IMG/VR virus record: IMGVR_UViG_3300036401_000045
Coordinates: 1 to 49,101 of that record
Strand: one strand, 5' to 3'
DNA: 49,101 nt
Source: a virus
Shown: positions 2,884 through 35,343 of the stretch, one piece after another
How the letters are laid out: each line of letters opens with the position of its first letter
Position numbering within the stretch: the first letter of the stretch is position 1
The notes under the pieces: generated by a model
The model's database searches: none
Seen by the model: only the letters and a program-made list of their open reading frames with translations
What the model was told of the DNA's origin: nothing
Program-made: the position numbers and the translations under genes

Positions 2884-4608
2884 ATGGCAGGACTTTCGCC
2901 AGACCCAAAGGAAGAGGCCTCACCGGGCAACGAATTGACCGCGCAGAAGATTGCTATTCGCCGGCAGGTCGATGACCGACTTCAAGGCCTCCGGGTGTAC
3001 CGTTACTCGTGGTGGGTGCATTGGCGGGAACTGGCGGATTTCATCTTACCGAGGCGCTATAAATGGCTGATCACTCCAAACATGATGAGCCGGGGCAGCC
3101 CGATCAACCAGCACATTCTCGACAGCACTGGCACTATGGCCGCAAGAAATCTCGCAAGCGGTCTCATGTCCGGCATCACAAGCCCGACAAGGCCGTGGTT
3201 CAAGCTAAAGATTGGAAGGCAAGACTCTACGCAGACCTCACCGACCTCATTATGGCTATCGGAATGTGAAAGGATTATGTACCTCATATTCGGGGAGTCC
3301 AACTTTTACAACGCGATGGCTGTGCTGTACTTCGATCTCGTCGTCTTTGGGACCGCCACCATGCTGATCTATGAGGACTTCGACGACGTAATCCACTGCT
3401 GCAATCCCTGCGCGGGCGAGTATTTCCTCGGGGAGAACGACAAGTTCGAGGTGGATACCTTCTATCGGGAGTTCACTCTCACCGTCAGTCAGGTCGTCAA
3501 TCAATTCGGGATCGAGAACTGTTCGACCTCCATCCGGAGTCTTTTCAAGACCGGCGGGTCGAGCCTTGAGAAGGAGATCATCGTCGCTCACGCTATCGAG
3601 CCGAACAACGACGGAAGGAAGCTCGGCATCCCCACCCATTTCAAGTACCGCGAAATCTATTGGGAGTGGGGACAGGCGCAGGAGTTCCTCCTCCTCAAGC
3701 GCGGCTACCACGAGGCCCCAATGATCTGCCCGCGGTGGGATATAGTCTCCAACGATCCGTATGGACGCTCTCCGGCGATGGATGCCCTGCCGGATATCAA
3801 GCAACTCCAGCAGGAGGTCAAGCGCAAGGCACAGGCCATCGACAAGATGGTGAACCCTCCGCTTATCGCGGACGTCCAGCTGAAGAACCAACCCGCGAGC
3901 CTCCTCCCCGGTGGTGTGACCTATGTGACCGGAGTGAACAACGTCGGGATGAAGCCGGTCTATCAGGTTATGCCTCAGCTGAAGGATATGATGGAGGACT
4001 TGAACGAGGTTCGCGACCGGATCGGCAAGACCTTCTTCAACAACCTTTTCCAGAACATCTCGCAGTACGAGCCGAAGTCCAACGTCAGCGCAACCGAGAT
4101 GGACATGAGGCGAAGCGAAGTCCTCGTGATGCTCGGCCCGGTCCTCGAGCGCATCTACGATGAGGGGATCAAACCCACGATCGAGCGGGTCTTTGCGGTT
4201 GCGGCCCGCGCTGGCATTTTGCCTCCGGCCCCTCCCGAAATCCACGGTGAGCCAATTCAGATCGAGTTCGTCTCGATGCTTCAGGCAGCGCAGAGCGCAA
4301 CGCAGACCCAGGGCATCGAAAGGCTCTTGCAGATCGCGGGCTCGTTGGTGTCGGTCGATCCCGCTGTGATGGACAATATCGACATTGACTACGCCTTTGA
4401 CAAGTATTCATCGCTGATGGGCAATGACCCGAAGATGATTAGGTCGCCCGGCGAACTCCAGCAAATCCGCGCCAATCGTGACAGGCAGCAGCAACAGCAA
4501 CAGCAGATCGACAATGCTCAGAAACTCGCGCAGGGCGCACAGACCCTTTCCGAGACGAAGATCGGCGGGGGCAATGCGCTTGAGGCCATGACAGGACAAG
4601 GGCAGTGA
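2884..4608 (+). CDS. Portal / head-to-tail connector protein (T7 gp8 type)
   Basis: Forms the dodecameric portal through which DNA enters and leaves the head. At 574 residues it is of typical size for the T7 gp8-like connector family. Recognisable features are the N-terminal segment around residues 40-75 with WRELADFILPRR, the tract DSTGTMAARNLASGLMSGIT (about 80-99), the segment WDIVSNDPYGRSPAMDALPD, and the late segment NISQYEPKSNVSATEMDMRR. The C-terminus is Gln-rich with a seven-Gln run, probably flexible. It lies directly after TerL and before capsid genes. This connector type is one of the main reasons for calling the phage a podovirus. Confidence 0.92.
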   Translation: MAGLSPDPKEEASPGNELTAQKIAIRRQVDDRLQGLRVYRYSWWVHWRELADFILPRRYKWLITPNMMSRGSPINQHILDSTGTMAARNLASGLMSGITSPTRPWFKLKIGRQDSTQTSPTSLWLSECERIMYLIFGESNFYNAMAVLYFDLVVFGTATMLIYEDFDDVIHCCNPCAGEYFLGENDKFEVDTFYREFTLTVSQVVNQFGIENCSTSIRSLFKTGGSSLEKEIIVAHAIEPNNDGRKLGIPTHFKYREIYWEWGQAQEFLLLKRGYHEAPMICPRWDIVSNDPYGRSPAMDALPDIKQLQQEVKRKAQAIDKMVNPPLIADVQLKNQPASLLPGGVTYVTGVNNVGMKPVYQVMPQLKDMMEDLNEVRDRIGKTFFNNLFQNISQYEPKSNVSATEMDMRRSEVLVMLGPVLERIYDEGIKPTIERVFAVAARAGILPPAPPEIHGEPIQIEFVSMLQAAQSATQTQGIERLLQIAGSLVSVDPAVMDNIDIDYAFDKYSSLMGNDPKMIRSPGELQQIRANRDRQQQQQQQIDNAQKLAQGAQTLSETKIGGGNALEAMTGQGQ

Positions 4609-4979
4609 GTGACTACAATGCTTCAGATCGACGCCATGTTAAGCTCGCCGCCAAGGACGCGAAGGCCTCTGAACTCGTTGATAAGGACGTTGTTGTCTCT
4701 ATCATGGGCACTACTAGTGGCCGCAAGTGGATGTGTGATCGTCTCACAGAGTCACACATCTTCGCGACCTCGTTCACTCTTAACGCCCTCGGAACTGCTT
4801 TCGCTGAAGGCGAGCGTTCCCAGGGACTACGTTTACTTAACCAGATAATGCTGTTCTGCCCAGAACAGTATGTTCAAATGATGAGGGAAGAAAATGCCCG
4901 ATCCAGTGCCAGCGCCGAACGACGGCGGAAGTCCTCTGAGCCAGACGCCGACACCGGGGACGGCGACACCTTCGACTGA
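4605..4979 (+). CDS. Bbp19-like structural protein
   Basis: 124 residues, starting at a GTG that overlaps the portal stop. The central segment, with GRKWMCDRL, TSFTLNALGTAFAEGERSQG and LRLLNQIM, matches the pattern of the Bbp19 family found beside the portal in BPP-1-like phages. The last 30 residues are polar and disordered-looking. Its 3' end overlaps the scaffold gene by 86 bases in another frame. Role in the virion is not certain. Confidence 0.6.
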   Translation: MSDYNASDRRHVKLAAKDAKASELVDKDVVVSIMGTTSGRKWMCDRLTESHIFATSFTLNALGTAFAEGERSQGLRLLNQIMLFCPEQYVQMMREENARSSASAERRRKSSEPDADTGDGDTFD

Positions 4980-28912: not shown

Positions 28913-29127
28913 TGTTTACCGCTGGCGCGAAGGCGATACATAGCTTCGCGGAGAGCATGAAGGCACAGCCGTTGGCGATGGCACTCGTCATCATCAACGT
29001 GCTGTTCCTTGGGGCGGCGGTACTGGTCATGCGCGACGTAGCGACCAATGCGAAAGTGCGAGATGCGGCAGAGGTTCAGCTACTCACGAAGGTCTTGCAG
29101 GACTGTGGGCTCAAGCCTAATAAATGA
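28912..29127 (+). CDS. Small single-helix membrane protein
   Basis: 71 residues with one strong hydrophobic segment (PLAMALVIINVLFLGAAVLV, about 20-39) between an amphipathic N-terminus and a charged C-terminal helix ending CGLKPNK. It could be a holin-like or spanin-like envelope protein. It is the last gene of the rightward operon, and its end overlaps the end of the convergent - strand gene by 11 bases. Confidence 0.65.
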   Translation: MFTAGAKAIHSFAESMKAQPLAMALVIINVLFLGAAVLVMRDVATNAKVRDAAEVQLLTKVLQDCGLKPNK

Positions 29128-30358
29128 AGTCGGGTTTTGGCAAAGGTATGTAGTGTGGCGAGCCATCTACGAAGGTGAGCTTCAGCTCCTTCGAGTCGCA
29201 CATCGTTTGAATAACCTTGCTGATAGTCCATGAGTCCACTCGGTCTCGAAGGAACGTGACGAGGACTGAGGCGCTGATCGGGGCCTTCCCGTTTTTATTG
29301 TAAAGCCTGATAAGATGGAAATGAAGGTCATCCATGTGACGACCCTCCGTTGTCACTCCTGCTGACACGAATAAGTCTCCCATGTTCGCCTCGGCCTCGA
29401 GAAGCCATCTACGAGCGGTATGGAAATTGTCCAAGGTAATGTTAAGACTGTCGGACTGAGCCGCTGATGCGACCATGCACAGTTTGAGAACGTGGGCCAG
29501 TCGGCGTGTGTTATAATGTGTCAGCTTTCGTTGAGCCGGGACTGGTGGACACAGGTTCGTATTCCAATCTTCAATAGCCTCCATAGCGCGCCCATCCCAG
29601 GTAACCTCACCAGAAAGCTTGTTAATCTTTCGGAGATCAATCGTTAGATCATGGAAGAGCTGCTCGTGTTCGAGGGCATTTTCCCTGTTGCCAAACACAC
29701 TGCCGGGCTTGAACTCACCGGAGAAGATAAAGATCGTTCGCGAGGTAAAGCCTTGGTCCCAGGCTCCATCAGGTAGGGTGCTGTTAAGATAGCTAGGGGT
29801 GGTGCCACCGATGATAGAAAGAAGTGGGAGTTCTATCTTGATATGATTGACCTTGCCAGTGCGGCGGCGCTCCTCGTAGAACTCCCCATCGTAGAGCTTT
29901 GTGAGGGTGTTCATGAAGGCCGGGTCATAAGAGGGGAGGAACACTCCGAGTTCGGACCCGATCACCTGAAGGGAATTGAATATGGTCTTGACCGGCTTGT
30001 AGATGACTCGCGGGGCGAGAACCAAAGAGTCGATTAACGAGGCGGTGGTGACTGACGAGGGTGCGATGTGCATCTCGCTTTCTGAAAGCGGATCGCTGAC
30101 TGACCGGGCCATTCGCTCTGAGCGCTTCAAGACCTCGGATTTGCCAAGGCCGGGCGCTGCGACGAGCACAATGTAAAGGTTAGGGAATAGGCGTGAGCCC
30201 TTGGTAAATGCCCATACCTTGCGTTCCATCGCAGAGGATATAAGTCCTATCGCGGCCCATCGCTGAAAGATCGCCGGGCTTTGAATTGCAGAACAGTTAC
30301 GAATAAAGGACTCTATCCAGTTGGGTAGCCGCCGGGACGATTTGCCTTGTTCTTCCAT
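29117..30358 (-). CDS. DUF3987-like primase/helicase ATPase
   Basis: 413 residues from the ATG at 30358 (aaggg five bases upstream; a GTG two codons earlier is an alternative). A Walker A motif APGLGKSE lies at about 68-75. The opening (PNWIESFIRNCSAIQSPAIF) and FQRWAAIGLIS follow the DUF3987 (YfjI-like) pattern, along with LPLLSIIGGTTPSYLN and TSRTIFIFSGE further on. Such proteins stand in for replicative helicases or primase-helicases in phages. It is the last gene of the leftward replication operon, and it overlaps the polymerase gene by 62 bases. No separate DnaB-like helicase or primase is seen, so this is the likely one. Confidence 0.7.
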   Translation of the reverse strand: MEEQGKSSRRLPNWIESFIRNCSAIQSPAIFQRWAAIGLISSAMERKVWAFTKGSRLFPNLYIVLVAAPGLGKSEVLKRSERMARSVSDPLSESEMHIAPSSVTTASLIDSLVLAPRVIYKPVKTIFNSLQVIGSELGVFLPSYDPAFMNTLTKLYDGEFYEERRRTGKVNHIKIELPLLSIIGGTTPSYLNSTLPDGAWDQGFTSRTIFIFSGEFKPGSVFGNRENALEHEQLFHDLTIDLRKINKLSGEVTWDGRAMEAIEDWNTNLCPPVPAQRKLTHYNTRRLAHVLKLCMVASAAQSDSLNITLDNFHTARRWLLEAEANMGDLFVSAGVTTEGRHMDDLHFHLIRLYNKNGKAPISASVLVTFLRDRVDSWTISKVIQTMCDSKELKLTFVDGSPHYIPLPKPDFIY

Positions 30359-31814
30359 CGCCACCCTTGTATTTCCTTAGACCATCAGGATTGTCGGGGG
30401 CTTCGACTGACCAGTTCCAGCCCGTCTTAGCTTCGGAGGGGATTAAGAGTTCGCGATTGTGAAGAAGTGGAACGGGGACTTGAATGGCTTTAAGGACCTG
30501 AGGTAGGACTGTATCTTCTTGTTCTTCGGGATATTGGATTAGAATTGCATCATGGATTTGGAGAAGCAACTGACAAATTCGGAGTCGCCAGACTTGTAAC
30601 ATTCCTCTGTTAAGAATGTCGCCGACTGATCCCTGCGGATCGTATGCAATGGCTTCTCTGACAGTCGCATCGTCGTTGCGCCTACCAAAAAACCAGCGGC
30701 GGCGGCCAGTAAGAGTAGTAAGATTGCCCGTAGTGAAAAGCTCCTGCGCAACGTGGCCATGCCAGCGCTGGTGAGCGGGGAAGGCGGTGAAGTAGGCAGA
30801 CTGGAAGGCGGCGATAAGTTTCGCGTCGAGCTTTGTATGCTTGGCCATAGTGTAAGGCTTGCCGTTGTAGTTTGTTCCGTGGCCAAGCACCTTAGCCATG
30901 TGTCGATAACTGTGCTGTCGATAGAAAGGTGTCTCAGCCAGTTCTCTGTCACTTTTAAGATCTCCGGTCCAGGCGAGCTGGTTTCCCCATGCGAGCCTAC
31001 AGACGCTCGTATGAAGATCTCCACTTTCACAGGCATCAAGGTATCTCCCATCCTGAAATAAGTTCCACTCGATCGCGCCGACCAGCCGGGACTCGGCTTG
31101 CTCTAGGTCGATGTAAGCGAACTTATGGCCTGGATCAGCAACGAACACCGATCGGAGGCGCTCTTCGATATTTTGGAGATTTGTTCCAGTCCCGAAATCA
31201 CTGAGCGAAGAACTGAACCGGCCTGTGGTTGTGCCCGCAATATTGTAACTAGTTCGCATCCTCCCATCGCTGTCAATTCCCGTCTTGAGGACTCCGATCT
31301 TTTTTCCAATGTCTCTAAGTCCGAGGATATGGCTAACAAGAGGCTGTGCCATAAAGTAATTGTCGAGTTGCTCAAGGGCGTCTCTGTTGACTGTAGGTTC
31401 GTAAAACCCCTTGGCGTTGCGTTTTTTAATCGGTGGTAATCCAAGAACTGTATAAAATAGTTCTCGGAGCTGCTTAGGTGATCGCCAGTTGAGAGCCGGT
31501 ATTCCAATTCCCTCAGATAGAATTCGTTCAAGGTTTCCGGCGATAATTCCGAGCTGGAGTTCGTATTCATGGATTACCTTATCACGAAGCTGCTGGTCCA
31601 CCAAAACGCCTCGAAGCTTCATCTCGAGGACTGGTGCTTGAAGGGCTTTCTCGAACTCGTAAGTGGCGCGGGTCTGGTTGTCAAGCTGAGGCTTGGTCGC
31701 GGCGAGGACCTCGGAGGTCACGCAACAGTCGAGGCCATTATATATCCAGAGCTTCTCCGTTTCGCTGTTGGGCATGGTAAGGACGGAGAGTTCGTGGGTT
31801 TTAATGGCTTTCAC
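30297..31814 (-). CDS. DNA polymerase, family A (polymerase half, with last proofreading motif)
   Basis: 505 residues, GTG start (an in-frame stop lies seven codons upstream; aaagaga precedes it). The N-terminus carries YNGLD (25-29), the Exo III (YxxxD) motif of a 3'-5' exonuclease whose Exo I and II motifs are in another gene, 32832-33842. Polymerase motifs: TTGRFSSS (196-203), motif A AYIDLEQAESR (D236, E241), motif B RHMAKVLGHGTNY (R304, K308, H312, Y316), motif C QIHDAI (H421, D422). Two positions differ from the usual: motif C has HDA instead of HDE, and the residue equivalent to E. coli F762 is His. Both catalytic Asp are kept, so activity is expected. Confidence 0.9.
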   Translation of the reverse strand: MKAIKTHELSVLTMPNSETEKLWIYNGLDCCVTSEVLAATKPQLDNQTRATYEFEKALQAPVLEMKLRGVLVDQQLRDKVIHEYELQLGIIAGNLERILSEGIGIPALNWRSPKQLRELFYTVLGLPPIKKRNAKGFYEPTVNRDALEQLDNYFMAQPLVSHILGLRDIGKKIGVLKTGIDSDGRMRTSYNIAGTTTGRFSSSLSDFGTGTNLQNIEERLRSVFVADPGHKFAYIDLEQAESRLVGAIEWNLFQDGRYLDACESGDLHTSVCRLAWGNQLAWTGDLKSDRELAETPFYRQHSYRHMAKVLGHGTNYNGKPYTMAKHTKLDAKLIAAFQSAYFTAFPAHQRWHGHVAQELFTTGNLTTLTGRRRWFFGRRNDDATVREAIAYDPQGSVGDILNRGMLQVWRLRICQLLLQIHDAILIQYPEEQEDTVLPQVLKAIQVPVPLLHNRELLIPSEAKTGWNWSVEAPDNPDGLRKYKGGDGRTRQIVPAATQLDRVLYS

Positions 31815-31842
31815 TGTGGGTCTCTTTAATCAGCATGGCGGC

Positions 31843-32013
31843 CTAATCCTTGTTCCTGATAGCCGAAGCAATCGAACGTGCTATAGTTGCGGCGTCAGTG
31901 TGAAAAACAATCGTTTCTGCTTTATCTTCCGCAATCTTGGCGCACCGCTCGCGCTCAGTGGCCACGGCTTTCAGCACTATTAAATCGACGTGGGCGCTAC
32001 CGTAGTTTGCCAT
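31843..32013 (-). CDS. Small phage protein inserted between polymerase halves (1)
   Basis: 56 residues, mostly helix (LIVLKAVATERERCAKIAED; DAATIARSIASAIRNKD), of the type common in short phage early genes. The start is four bases after the previous stop. One of five small genes lying between the proofreading-half gene and the polymerase-half gene. Unknown function. Confidence 0.55.
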   Translation of the reverse strand: MANYGSAHVDLIVLKAVATERERCAKIAEDKAETIVFHTDAATIARSIASAIRNKD

Positions 32014-32017
32014 AGGG

Positions 32018-32185
32018 CTATTCCTTCAATTCAAGATATTCTGGCCAATCAATCGGCTTCGGGCCAGTAACACCTTTGGCGGGATCGCCACAGACAAGAC
32101 GACGCAGTTCGGCTTGACGAATGGCAATCTCTCGCTGCAATCTGGTAACCTTCTCAGCGAATGTTTCCACGGTGGGCCTATTCAT
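32018..32185 (-). CDS. Small phage protein inserted between polymerase halves (2)
   Basis: 55 residues. A helical basic first part (VETFAEKVTRLQREIAIRQA) is followed by a Pro-rich end (GPKPIDWPEYLELKE). Its ATG overlaps the stop of the DUF7768-like gene (gaATGA), implying coupling. Unknown function. Confidence 0.55.
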   Translation of the reverse strand: MNRPTVETFAEKVTRLQREIAIRQAELRRLVCGDPAKGVTGPKPIDWPEYLELKE

Positions 32186-32517
32186 TCAATCACCTGTTCC
32201 CGCTTCCCCTCTAACCATCTCAGCTTCACTGGCTTGCCCAACCTCGCCGCCCGCGTTATCCCGTAGAGCATCCCCGTTGTCACGCCTCGGTCCATGTAGA
32301 CCGCTATGTAGTCCGCCACTTCGAGCCAGCCAATAGCAGCATCAATACCCTTACGGCGCTCTTCAGCGATTGTATCGTCGAGTATTCCTTTTTGTGTGTA
32401 TAGGAGATGACTTGCGAACGGACTTTCACCACGATTAAGACAGTCACGGATGCACTGACGGGAGTACTTGACATTGGCAAAGCCTCCAGCGAATGGACTC
32501 TCGACGATGACTCTCAC
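32182..32517 (-). CDS. DUF7768-like nucleoside-deoxyribosyltransferase-fold protein
   Basis: 111 residues, GTG start overlapping the previous stop (GTGA). The pattern VIVESPFAGGF at the N-terminus, then ESPFASHLLYTQKGILDD, GIDAAIGWLEVADYIAVYMD and a final RGVTTGMLYGITRAARLGKP, is that of the small Rossmann-like DUF7768/DUF4406 proteins, which resemble nucleoside 2-deoxyribosyltransferases. A role in nucleotide metabolism or in handling nucleotide signals is possible, not shown. Confidence 0.7.
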   Translation of the reverse strand: MRVIVESPFAGGFANVKYSRQCIRDCLNRGESPFASHLLYTQKGILDDTIAEERRKGIDAAIGWLEVADYIAVYMDRGVTTGMLYGITRAARLGKPVKLRWLEGKREQVIE

Positions 32518-32657
32518 GGAGGAAGGTTCCCCACGAGGTTGATAACGAGAGCGCCAGTTGTATTGTTGATTGTGACTTTGAAGATGTTGCCCTTGTCGGT
32601 GAGGATAAAGAAGTATCCGTCGAAGGGTACGACCGCTACGATTTTACCGTTAATCAT
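32514..32657 (-). CDS. Small beta-rich phage protein inserted between polymerase halves
   Basis: 47 residues with alternating hydrophobic pattern (KIVAVVPFDGYFFILTDKGN, then IFKVTINNTTGALVIN). The ATG overlaps the preceding stop (ATGA), and ggagaagaaat is a good ribosome site. Unknown function. Confidence 0.5.
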   Translation of the reverse strand: MINGKIVAVVPFDGYFFILTDKGNIFKVTINNTTGALVINLVGNLPP

Positions 32658-32830
32658 ATTTCTTCTCCTGTTTTAAGGCCGTCTATTAAGGCAGATGTAA
32701 GAATTCTTATAGTTTCGGCTGCCGAAAGAGTTGCAAGACGAACTTCTTGTGACCACCCTTTACCCGCAAGTGACTCATATTGTTTCTTATTTTCTATTTG
32801 AAGGCGCTCGATAACCTTTACCCAATCCAT
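32654..32830 (-). CDS. Small helical phage protein inserted between polymerase halves
   Basis: 58 residues (MDWVKVIERLQIENKKQYES ...). I prefer the ATG at 32830, nine bases after agaggg; the frame also has an ATG at 32839 with no gap to the ribosome site. It starts two bases after the stop of the UDG-exonuclease gene. Unknown function. Confidence 0.55.
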   Translation of the reverse strand: MDWVKVIERLQIENKKQYESLAGKGWSQEVRLATLSAAETIRILTSALIDGLKTGEEI

Positions 32831-32831
32831 A

Positions 32832-33842
32832 TTATTCATCCCTCTTAATGGTTGTCTTACCGCGCTGACGCATCAACTTCCATGAGGCCTCGTTAGTGTA
32901 GACCGAGCCCAAGAACGCAAGACCTTTCTCGGACTCGGGTTGCAACGAGTGATGCAACAGCATTGTGTCGTCTTCATAGTTCACGACAGGTATTCCGTAT
33001 CCTTTCCATAGGAAATTGATATCATACAGTCCATTCTGTGCAACTTTTCGCTGTGGCGAAGAGAGGACTTTATTAACATATCGCCAGGCTCGACTTTCAT
33101 CCGTTGCAGTAGGCCAGTAACTTCCATTTGCTGTTCGTGGGTCCACGAAGGGTACAACAATTGCTGAAAGAGGGCCTGGAGCAAATCCAATGCAAGTAAT
33201 TTGTTGACCGGCGGTCTCAATGTCAAAGGAGATTTCTTCGGCGGGCCGGAGAAAGTTGTCATAGTACCACTCCATTTCGTCTAGGGTTGGCTCGATATAG
33301 ATAGTTCGCTCAGGTCGTCGAACCTCGGGAAACTCCGACTCGCGGGCGGCCTTGGTAAAGTCGAGGACGGTGACGGCTCGGAGGTCCCACTGGCGCAAGA
33401 TGGCGGCGGGGTGATAGGTCGGAAGGCACTTGAGCCCCGGAAGTGCGGTAGAAGCAATGACAGTTCCCCTAATCTTGGAGATACCTGTGTTATGTAAAAA
33501 TGCCCAGGCGGCAGTATTACCAAGCAGTATGGCGATGTTGGGTTTAAGATCTCGAAGTTCTTTGACGACTCGCTGAACCTCAGGGAAATACTGCGGGAGA
33601 AGATACTTGCCTGCACGAAGAGGTGGGAAACCGCCCGCCTTCTCCTTCCCGCAAAGGTTCTCAATATCGTTCGACGGGCGCGGGCGCAAGTTGAACACGT
33701 TAGTAAGGAAGCAATCCGCACGGTGTATTCCTCCCTCGTTGAGCATCTTCGTGAGTTCCCAACCGGCGGGGCCGACGAAGGGAGCACGTTCGCGTTCCTC
33801 GTACTCTCCCCACGCCTCCCCGACGATTGCGATCTTAGTCAC
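32832..33842 (-). CDS. Uracil-DNA-glycosylase-like domain fused to 3'-5' exonuclease domain (polymerase N-terminal half)
   Basis: 336 residues from the GTG at 33842, which overlaps the DUF3310 stop. Residues 1-165 follow the UDG superfamily (family 4/5-like) pattern: VGEAWGEYEERERAPFVGPA (7-26) and YHPAAIL (143-149). From about 203 a DEDD exonuclease begins: Exo I FDIET (D207, E209), Exo II QNGLYDINFL (N270, D274), then DDTMLLHHSLQ (291-301). The protein stops at 336, before any Exo III motif; that motif (YNGLD) opens the polymerase gene about 1 kb further on. The UDG part may scan for uracil or be structural. This appears to be the N-terminal half of a UDG-exo-pol polymerase. Confidence 0.82.
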   Translation of the reverse strand: MTKIAIVGEAWGEYEERERAPFVGPAGWELTKMLNEGGIHRADCFLTNVFNLRPRPSNDIENLCGKEKAGGFPPLRAGKYLLPQYFPEVQRVVKELRDLKPNIAILLGNTAAWAFLHNTGISKIRGTVIASTALPGLKCLPTYHPAAILRQWDLRAVTVLDFTKAARESEFPEVRRPERTIYIEPTLDEMEWYYDNFLRPAEEISFDIETAGQQITCIGFAPGPLSAIVVPFVDPRTANGSYWPTATDESRAWRYVNKVLSSPQRKVAQNGLYDINFLWKGYGIPVVNYEDDTMLLHHSLQPESEKGLAFLGSVYTNEASWKLMRQRGKTTIKRDE

Positions 33843-34068
33843 GGCAAAGCCTGTTAATGTACCACTGTGCCTTCTTAAGATCAGCCAACCTCTCTCCCTT
33901 GAGCGGGGCGCGCGAGAGGTAACGAATAGTCTGACCAACGAGGAAGCCATCGACGGCATTGTAGCTCTTGATGATGTCCTCGATGATCTCGATGGTCTCG
34001 AACTTGCCGCCGGTATAGTGTGGCGGGTGGTTAATCATATTAGTTTCAGACTTTTCTTTCTTAGACAT
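33835..34068 (-). CDS. DUF3310-type phage protein
   Basis: 77 residues. NHPPHYTGGKFETIEIIEDI, then VGQTIRYLSRAPLKG and a final LKKAQWYINRL, is the compact pattern of DUF3310, a nucleotide-kinase-associated small phage domain. It is preceded by ggagaaagtga and starts one base after the methyltransferase stop. Role probably in nucleotide or replication metabolism, not defined. Confidence 0.8.
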   Translation of the reverse strand: MSKKEKSETNMINHPPHYTGGKFETIEIIEDIIKSYNAVDGFLVGQTIRYLSRAPLKGERLADLKKAQWYINRLCRD

Positions 34069-35343
34069 TCACTTTCTCCTCAGGGCTCTGGACGTTTTAA
34101 GAGTTCGATTGGCCCCTTCCGCGAACTCTTTATTGATTTCTATCCCAAGAACGTATCGCGCGTTAAGCGACTCAGCCGCTCGCAGCGAACTTCCACTACC
34201 ACAGGTGGGGTCAAGGACAAGACTACTTTCGTCCACAAACATCCTGAAGAAGTTGCGCAGGACTGGTTCGGGTTTGATAGACATATGCTGCGAGCGGTCA
34301 GTCGGCGCAGCGTAAGCATTGCTAATTGGAGCGACAATCTTGCGATCACCTCGTGAACCGAAGAACGCTGTTTCATAAATCCTCCGAGGCCCCCGCGACG
34401 GATCAGGTAAGATGCCCACGTTGTCGGACTTGAGCCAGATTAAAGGGAAAGGATCAAAAAGTATATCGCTATAACGAGTAAAGTGATCGAGGGTAGAATA
34501 GTAATTGTGCATGGAGAACCAAAACATGAAATGACAAGACTCAGTTGTAAGACGATCAAGGTTCCTTGTAAGGCAATTAACCAAATTCCAATAAGTGCTG
34601 TCAGTGTCGGCATAGCCACCATGCGTCGGGGCCGACCCCTGATTAAAGCTGTCAGCGCCGATACCATAAGGGAAATCACAATGGATGAAATTGAAACGAG
34701 GTCCATCGTAAGCTGGAGCCCACTCCAAGAAGCTAGTATTGAGGACACTTTCAATCTCCTCTCCTTCAAGTGGCTTCGCGATGTTCGCGACGGCGCGGAG
34801 TTGGATCAAGGCCTCCTCGTCTTTCCGTGCGCTGGTTCGCTCCGTAATGCCCTTGGCCGTGGAGTACTTTGGAGCCTCAATAACTCTTGGATTACCGGAT
34901 ACCAGTTCCTTGGCAACCACGATCTTGTCAGCAATGGTTTGCTGAGGAATACCCAACGCCACACCAGTATCCTCTTGGGTCCACGTAGGCTCAGAGGCTT
35001 TGCGGAGGTTGTGGTAATTGTAGATCGCCTGGCACTCTTCCTGCCAAGTAAGGTTCGACCTCTTAATGTTCTCCTCGAGTTCGATCTCATGAAGGCGCGA
35101 CTCCTCTAGTTCATCCGTGTATTGAGCAGATATATGAGTATGACCAAGATTAGCACAAGCAGCGAGGCGACGCTCGCCGGCAACCAGGGTGTTCTGTCGG
35201 GTGATAACAATAGGATGAATAAGTCCAAGACGATTGATGCTATCAGCAAGCTCATCAAGATTGGGTAGGTCATTACGTTGCCTCCCTTCGCGATCAACGA
35301 AGATCGAAGCGATTTCAACGCTGTGAAATTGGCCGGAGGTCAT
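34069..35343 (-). CDS. ParB-like domain fused to DNA methyltransferase
   Basis: 424 residues. The N-terminal ParB/Srx-like domain has IHPIVI (42-47), LVAGERRLAAC (53-63) and ENIKRSNLTW (91-100), with a helical HTH-like stretch to about 145. The C-terminal half is an amino-methyltransferase with the catalytic motif first, DFPYG (223-227, a variant of (D/N)PPY), and the AdoMet-binding LDPTCGSGSS later (377-386), the order of beta-class enzymes. It probably methylates N6-adenine or N4-cytosine, perhaps to evade restriction or mark phage DNA. The start overlaps the motif ggtatggtcc. Confidence 0.88.
   Translation of the reverse strand: MTSGQFHSVEIASIFVDREGRQRNDLPNLDELADSINRLGLIHPIVITRQNTLVAGERRLAACANLGHTHISAQYTDELEESRLHEIELEENIKRSNLTWQEECQAIYNYHNLRKASEPTWTQEDTGVALGIPQQTIADKIVVAKELVSGNPRVIEAPKYSTAKGITERTSARKDEEALIQLRAVANIAKPLEGEEIESVLNTSFLEWAPAYDGPRFNFIHCDFPYGIGADSFNQGSAPTHGGYADTDSTYWNLVNCLTRNLDRLTTESCHFMFWFSMHNYYSTLDHFTRYSDILFDPFPLIWLKSDNVGILPDPSRGPRRIYETAFFGSRGDRKIVAPISNAYAAPTDRSQHMSIKPEPVLRNFFRMFVDESSLVLDPTCGSGSSLRAAESLNARYVLGIEINKEFAEGANRTLKTSRALRRK

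Follow-up and report, generated by a model that had tools for sequence, protein, structure and literature searches.

A polymerase in two genes

How can a phage DNA polymerase proofread when its exonuclease domain is divided between two genes? This question is raised by the virus record IMGVR_UViG_3300036401_000045 of IMG/VR, which was analysed as a whole (49,101 bases, hereafter referred to as the window) and in which two open reading frames (ORFs), separated by five small genes, together resemble one polymerase with a uracil-DNA glycosylase (UDG)-like domain, a 3'-5' exonuclease and a family-A polymerase domain. The best explanation of the evidence as a whole, to which we assign a probability of about 0.85, is a family-A DNA polymerase that the phage makes as two subunits, the outcome of one ancient fission of its gene within the proofreading domain. 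The proteins encoded by the two ORFs (the N half and the C half) each carry only part of the proofreading site, with the exonuclease motifs Exo I and II in one and Exo III in the other; since more than 100 related viruses are broken in the same place, the two very probably have to join for DNA proofreading. The relevant features are listed below, with row counts taken from alignments of the relatives.

32832..33842, minus strand: N half, UDG-like domain (residues 1-170) followed by the 3'-5' exonuclease that contains Exo I and Exo II; starts with GTG
33216..33224, minus strand: Exo I, D207-I-E209 (FDIET), with D and E invariant in 106/106 rows
33021..33038, minus strand: Exo II, QNGLYD 269-274, with N270 and D274 invariant in 106/106 rows
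32832..32846, minus strand: end of the N half, AAGAGGGATGAATAA, which encodes the tail KRDE, is also Shine-Dalgarno-like and has the next start codon inside it
30297..31814, minus strand: C half, Exo III helix and family-A polymerase; GTG start
31728..31742, minus strand: Exo III, YNGLD 25-29, with Y25 and D29 invariant in 99/99 rows
31107..31109, minus strand: aspartate D236 of polymerase motif A, 99/99 rows
30549..30554, minus strand: polymerase motif C, H421-D422, 99/99 rows

An earlier note, made from the sequence alone, had placed the two ORFs at these positions and assigned them these domains, and the profile searches agree with it. In Pfam, the N half matched UDG (PF03167, E 1.5e-19, residues 3-155) and DNA_pol_A_exo1 (PF01612, E 7.8e-06, residues 201-318), the latter match containing Exo I (residues 207-209) and Exo II (residues 269-274), and the C half matched DNA_pol_A (PF00476, E 2.3e-36). 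Motifs A, B and C, which the note had also recognised, correspond to D236, R304, K308 and H421-D422. The Exo III motif YNGLD is present in the C protein (31742-31728), although not at its very start as had been claimed, a 24-residue head preceding it. The two proteins had been said to read, end to end, like one UDG-exo-pol polymerase; in PHROG, the N half matched positions 553-799 and the C half positions 804-1232 of the DNA polymerase profile phrog_17, and one therefore follows the other within a single polymerase profile. However, the two ORFs lie 1,017 nucleotides (nt) apart in the window and do not form the single polypeptide of the UDG-exo-pol polymerases represented by phrog_17.

The same break in relatives

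Relatives were obtained by searching IMG/VR with the single halves (7 and 29 loci), from genome contigs (5 loci), and by alignment scans of IMG/VR, one per half, from which the best 80 of 589 and the best 80 of 584 confirmed candidates were taken. Both halves were located in every locus by one script, and 45 loci were removed as duplicates of the same junction. This left 116 distinct split loci besides the window, 14 loci with one half only and a single fused locus (L190), which is distant (36% identity). A plasmid search returned distant polymerases only, all with less than 60% identity.

The spacing between the two halves in the split loci ranges from -8 to 1,924 nt, with differing genes in between, and the position of the break is constant. 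The N half ends a few residues past an invariant Trp-Lys pair (residues 321-322), typically with (T)TIKRDE, and the C half starts with M(K/R)xIxT, about 19-27 residues ahead of YNGLD. With the same break in 116 further loci, it is no accident of the window's genome and more than chance. Kuura, a Caulobacter phage that has been isolated, is split in the same way and has two genes in between. Its relative L271, the only additional locus retrieved with the Kuura C half as query, also has the split. Kuura is plaque-forming, with a reported titre of about 2.7e10 plaque-forming units/ml (PMC9959647), and the split arrangement therefore supports a living phage.

Unsplit relatives and evidence for a single fission

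Relatives with an unsplit gene, which the earlier note had proposed for comparison, do exist: ctMlz233 (MW202489), Microcystis phage Mel-JY34 (PP438425) and loci from IMG/VR. The scan performed with the two named sequences yielded 80 loci, 70 of which have one ORF running through the junction to the end, while seven pass the junction but break later in the polymerase and three are partial; none of the 80 was split at the window's junction. These sisters have the same domain order as the window, a DNA methyltransferase gene lies upstream in both ctMlz233 and Mel-JY34, and a DUF3987 gene lies downstream in Mel-JY34, as in the window. They differ from it in having one ORF over the Exo II-Exo III junction, with a shorter linker there.

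A FastTree phylogeny of 153 polymerase halves, 101 from split and 52 from fused genes, showed a single change between the fused and split states, with a support of 100. A mixture-model tree of 50 of these rows also gave one change (support 100/99), which was found in 200/200 bootstrap trees, and the tree of N halves (170 rows) again had one fused/split change (support 98). Long branches were flagged on the 153-row and 170-row trees. One change on three trees implies that a single fission explains all the sampled cases.

A proofreading site probably built from two proteins

In the N half, D207, E209, N270, D274 and D292 are invariant in all 106 rows (an alignment without L066, for which the start had been called far upstream), and in the C half the same is true of D236, R304, K308, H421 and D422, as well as of the two Exo III residues, in all 99 rows; residue E241 of motif A is E in 74 rows, D in 21 and Q in 4. 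The residue set of a DEDDy exonuclease is complete only when the two proteins are taken together, with D207, E209 and D274 in one and Y25 and D29 in the other. The ratio of nonsynonymous to synonymous substitutions (dN/dS) is low in both halves, at about 0.05-0.23 where synonymous change is unsaturated, the exonuclease part and the Exo III helix included, and is looser (0.15-0.46) in the 16-residue head of the C half.

The AlphaFold model of the N half (mean predicted local distance difference test score, pLDDT, of 92.9) contains the UDG domain and the strands and helices of the exonuclease up to residue 324. It aligned with Klenow residues 324-493 over 153-155 residues (Z 14.7, root-mean-square deviation, rmsd, 3.3-3.5), where the alignment ends, and with family 4 UDGs and UdgX (Z of about 20). 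The model of the C half (mean pLDDT 91.7) begins with a long helix (residues 18-43) bearing Exo III and aligned with Klenow from residues 471-487 to 928 (Z of about 32). The catalytic residues of Klenow, which we take to be D355, E357, D424, Y497 and D501, thus fall on both sides of the break: the N half has the first three and, as its alignment stops at residue 493, the Exo III tyrosine and aspartate (Y497/D501) are found only in the C half. A complete exonuclease fold in the N protein alone, which the earlier note had named as a refutation of its reading, is therefore not predicted.

Several observations weigh against the two-subunit explanation. The tail of the N half is variable and modelled with low confidence (pLDDT of about 53-61), and the first 16 residues of the C half are also variable. 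Covariation between the exonuclease part of the N half and the head of the C half, in 88 paired rows, was not enriched, with one pair among the top 30 (1.2 expected) and three among the top 200 (8.2 expected). Furthermore, the queries were built from split proteins, with the best 80 of about 590 candidates taken per scan, and the split and fused groups were sampled by separate queries, so intermediates may have been missed.

The negative covariation test also speaks for a rival view in which the two halves work apart, the N half sensing uracil or binding DNA with its exonuclease domain dead and the C half acting as a polymerase without proofreading. The N half may indeed have a job of its own, because E9, F22, N48 and H144, which we take to be UDG-site positions by analogy with family 4 UDGs, are conserved in 103, 103, 104 and 105 of the 106 rows, respectively. 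However, exonuclease motifs decay in polymerases without proofreading, such as Taq, whereas the residues of Exo I, II and III show no variation in either protein here, and the break deprives the N half of the last helix of the fold. We therefore consider independent halves improbable.

According to the two-subunit reading, the N half would be a protein in its own right, consisting of the UDG-like domain and the exonuclease sheet bearing D207, E209 and D274, and the C half another, consisting of the final helix of the exonuclease, which bears Y25 and D29, followed by the polymerase. Both would be translated separately from one operon and would then assemble into one enzyme, with an exonuclease site built from both. 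The proofreading site of a family-A polymerase would thus be split in two as a stable arrangement, with the second protein needed for its completion. It is even conceivable, although doubtful, that the C half alone is an exo-minus enzyme that acquires proofreading, together with a UDG-like uracil sensor, only when the N half binds, that the phage sets fidelity through the translation of the coupled genes, and that the nucleotide-handling DUF7768 cargo (see below) belongs to the same functional unit, acting on nucleotides at the replication complex.

A proofreading active site cut in two, with both pieces under selection throughout a phage clade, provides more than 100 natural split exonuclease-polymerases for determining how a shared active site assembles, and the unsplit sisters can serve as controls. 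Two further questions that could be addressed with this system are whether proofreading in trans is possible and how other genes come to settle in an essential one.

The junction between the halves

The two halves are directly joined, without an insert, in 26 of the 117 loci, 11 of these having a 4-nt overlap (ATGA), eight a 1-nt overlap (e.g. TAATG) and seven a spacing of -8 to +3. Among the remaining loci, three have short gaps (24-76 nt) and 88 have gaps of at least 100 nt. The next start codon, whichever gene it belongs to, lies -8 to +3 nt from the N stop in 106 of the 117 loci.

The end of the N half in the window, with the codons ATT AAG AGG GAT GAA, doubles as a ribosome-binding site sequence. 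A Shine-Dalgarno-like word was found in the last 21 nt of the N half in 87/117 loci, versus 126/2,120 random N stretches used as controls, and AGG accounts for 56% of the 79 arginine codons of the tail, versus 9% of the 2,509 in the body of the N half. The Shine-Dalgarno-like tail and the adjoining start hold whether the C half or cargo comes next. The junction therefore looks like a translational-coupling cassette usable by any newcomer gene. Translation of the gene after the N half would be coupled to that of the N half; in some relatives this gene is the polymerase half itself, whereas in others, and in the window, cargo genes occupy the junction and the polymerase half is the final gene of the block. 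Because this sequence is at once a coding tail, a site for ribosome binding and a stop/start overlap, it suggests a way in which an essential gene can tolerate an insertion.

Duplication of the junction by insertion was also considered, but over the 88 open loci the N tail and the sequence preceding the C half were no more alike (mean of 9.15 matches) than in controls from other loci (9.24). In one of these 88 loci, L106, which is a recent insertion, the single cargo gene ends in an N-like tail, VKRDE, directly before the polymerase half.

The junction also bears on whether the two halves might still end up in one polypeptide, through RNA splicing, ribosome bypassing or a frameshift over the gap. 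Other phage polymerase genes are interrupted by introns, and an intron has been considered for a similar split (PMC10580990). A search of window positions 29000-35000 gave no Rfam match at E <= 1, a miss that alone would not exclude an intron. However, the 26 insert-free loci still have separate ORFs, with stop and start overlapping or 0-3 nt apart, and their N and C frames stand in three kinds of relation (21, 3 and 2 loci), which argues against a fusion by frameshifting or stop read-through; neither an intron nor a common frameshift therefore explains the split. The wide range of spacings, the differing genes in the gap and the conserved end of each half also count against a single product, which we regard as very improbable. 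Gene decay or an assembly artefact in one genome, for which nothing speaks besides the break itself, is refuted by the identical break in the 116 other loci and in an isolated phage, and by the purifying selection on both halves.

The gap as a site of cargo turnover

The gap of the window and the genes on either side of the block are as follows.

33835..34068, minus strand: small upstream gene, matching PHROG nucleotide-kinase families, with an 8-nt overlap between its stop and the GTG start of the N half
32654..32839, minus strand: cargo gene 1, 61 amino acids (aa), without a Pfam match
32514..32657, minus strand: cargo gene 2, 47 aa, without a significant match; a similar gene is present in the gaps of L020 and L022
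32182..32517, minus strand: cargo gene 3, 111 aa, DUF7768 (Pfam E 2.8e-25) / PHROG 355, nucleoside 2-deoxyribosyltransferase-like
32018..32185, minus strand: cargo gene 4, 55 aa, without a match
31843..32013, minus strand: cargo gene 5, 56 aa, without a match
29117..30364, minus strand: DUF3987 primase/helicase-like gene, next in the operon, sharing 68 nt with the end of the C half

The five small genes had been noted earlier, with joins of 1-5 bases throughout. Their number is confirmed, and three 4-nt overlaps and one 4-nt gap fit this description; the 8-nt overlap between the N half and cargo gene 1 and the 28-nt gap before the polymerase half do not. Counted from its second ATG, cargo gene 1 would have a 1-nt gap to the N half instead of the overlap. 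Cargo genes 1, 2, 4 and 5 gave no Pfam match at E <= 0.001.

Cargo turns over in the gap, with DUF7768 as the main family and HNH endonucleases in some loci, and the five genes of the window are only one version of this changing cargo. On the tree, the gap must have changed between its closed and open states at least 18 times, and well supported branches make 12 of these changes unavoidable. L101 and L103, for example, have no insert, versus 194 and 225 nt in their near relatives L104 and L106, and L093 has none, versus 318 nt in its near relative L114. Among 130 gap ORFs, Pfam identified DUF7768 (21), KTSC (12), HNH_3 (7), DUF1937 (5) and DUF4406 (3), and 26 matched PHROG 355 (nucleoside 2-deoxyribosyltransferase). 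Profile searches found DUF7768 in 28 of the 91 gaps of at least 60 nt, and not in about 705 kb of sequence flanking the split loci; in 778 kb from 92 loci belonging to the unsplit clade or to other named phages, it was present in two loci, one of these matches being weak. HNH was found in 9 of the 91 gaps and also in the flanks of 9 loci, and KTSC in 12 gaps, all from one clade.

The deepest split lineages (Kuura and L271, L036, L188) all carry cargo, which includes DUF7768 in L036 and L188. An inserted gene, perhaps a homing endonuclease or a passenger gene, may therefore have caused the fission and later have been lost in places. In L271, which is a Kuura-like virus, an RNase H-like gene (PF00075, E 6.7e-07) lies between the polymerase halves at 4157-4678.

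Comparison with known systems

The family-A DNA polymerase of phiLo (PDB 9qhs) resembles that of the window in having an N-terminal UDG-like domain, an exonuclease and a family-A polymerase, but it is a single chain of 1,142 residues. The N half matched it in sequence (E 3.5e-05) and in fold over the UDG and exonuclease parts (Z 14.0), with an rmsd of 16.2 because the two domains sit differently.

Replicative polymerases in two proteins are known from the T4-related Aeromonas phages 25 and 44RR, in which gene 43 is present as 43A/43B. In phage 25, a seg homing endonuclease lies at the split, and 43A and 43B are reported to co-purify and to have polymerase activity (PMC2988022). The window likewise has two cistrons, with no homing endonuclease in its gap; 43A/43B is a family B polymerase, is limited to few phages and has a different insert. 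In the OM43 phages MEP401 and MEP402 and Vibrio phage vB_VspS_VS-ABTNL-3, a family-A polymerase is encoded by two ORFs with a small ORF between them (PMC10580990; MF497422), but the break is inside the polymerase domain and the exonuclease is whole. The NrdA of Aeromonas phage Aeh1, split by mobE, provides a further parallel: an insertion in a functionally critical region is reported to give two proteins that form a fully active enzyme (PMC2988022), in this case a ribonucleotide reductase rather than a polymerase. Split phage polymerases (43A/43B; MEP401) are thus already known, and what is new here is a family-A enzyme split through its exonuclease site across a whole clade. A literature search found no report of such a split, but it covered open-licence PMC papers only and is weak evidence of absence.

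Other interruptions and neighbouring genes

A second break was observed in the unsplit sister clade, in L003 (the Vibrio phage MF497422), L232, L233, L238, L260, L261, L262 and L265. The polymerase stops after a GTNLQNIPxGDE-like stretch and resumes just ahead of motif A, with a GGAGA-like sequence near the stop in most of these loci and a small gene in between in several (dUTPase-like, by eye, in L265). An insert of about 860-930 nt is present in the polymerase of L240, L243 and L246, and the unsplit polymerase of L190 (6001-8241, on a contig of a Nealsonbacteria metagenome-assembled genome) has a long in-frame insert after motif B that appears, by eye, to be intein-like. L041 (1727-4364, MW202554) has two polymerase ORFs 151 nt apart, broken just past the Exo III helix, a site different from that of the window.

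The overlap of the DUF3987 gene with the C half in the window is in a different frame, and the annotation of Pseudomonas phage PaP2 has a similar overlap (82 nt). A gene at window positions 34069-35343, upstream of the polymerase block, combines a ParB_N domain with an N6/N4 DNA methyltransferase domain.

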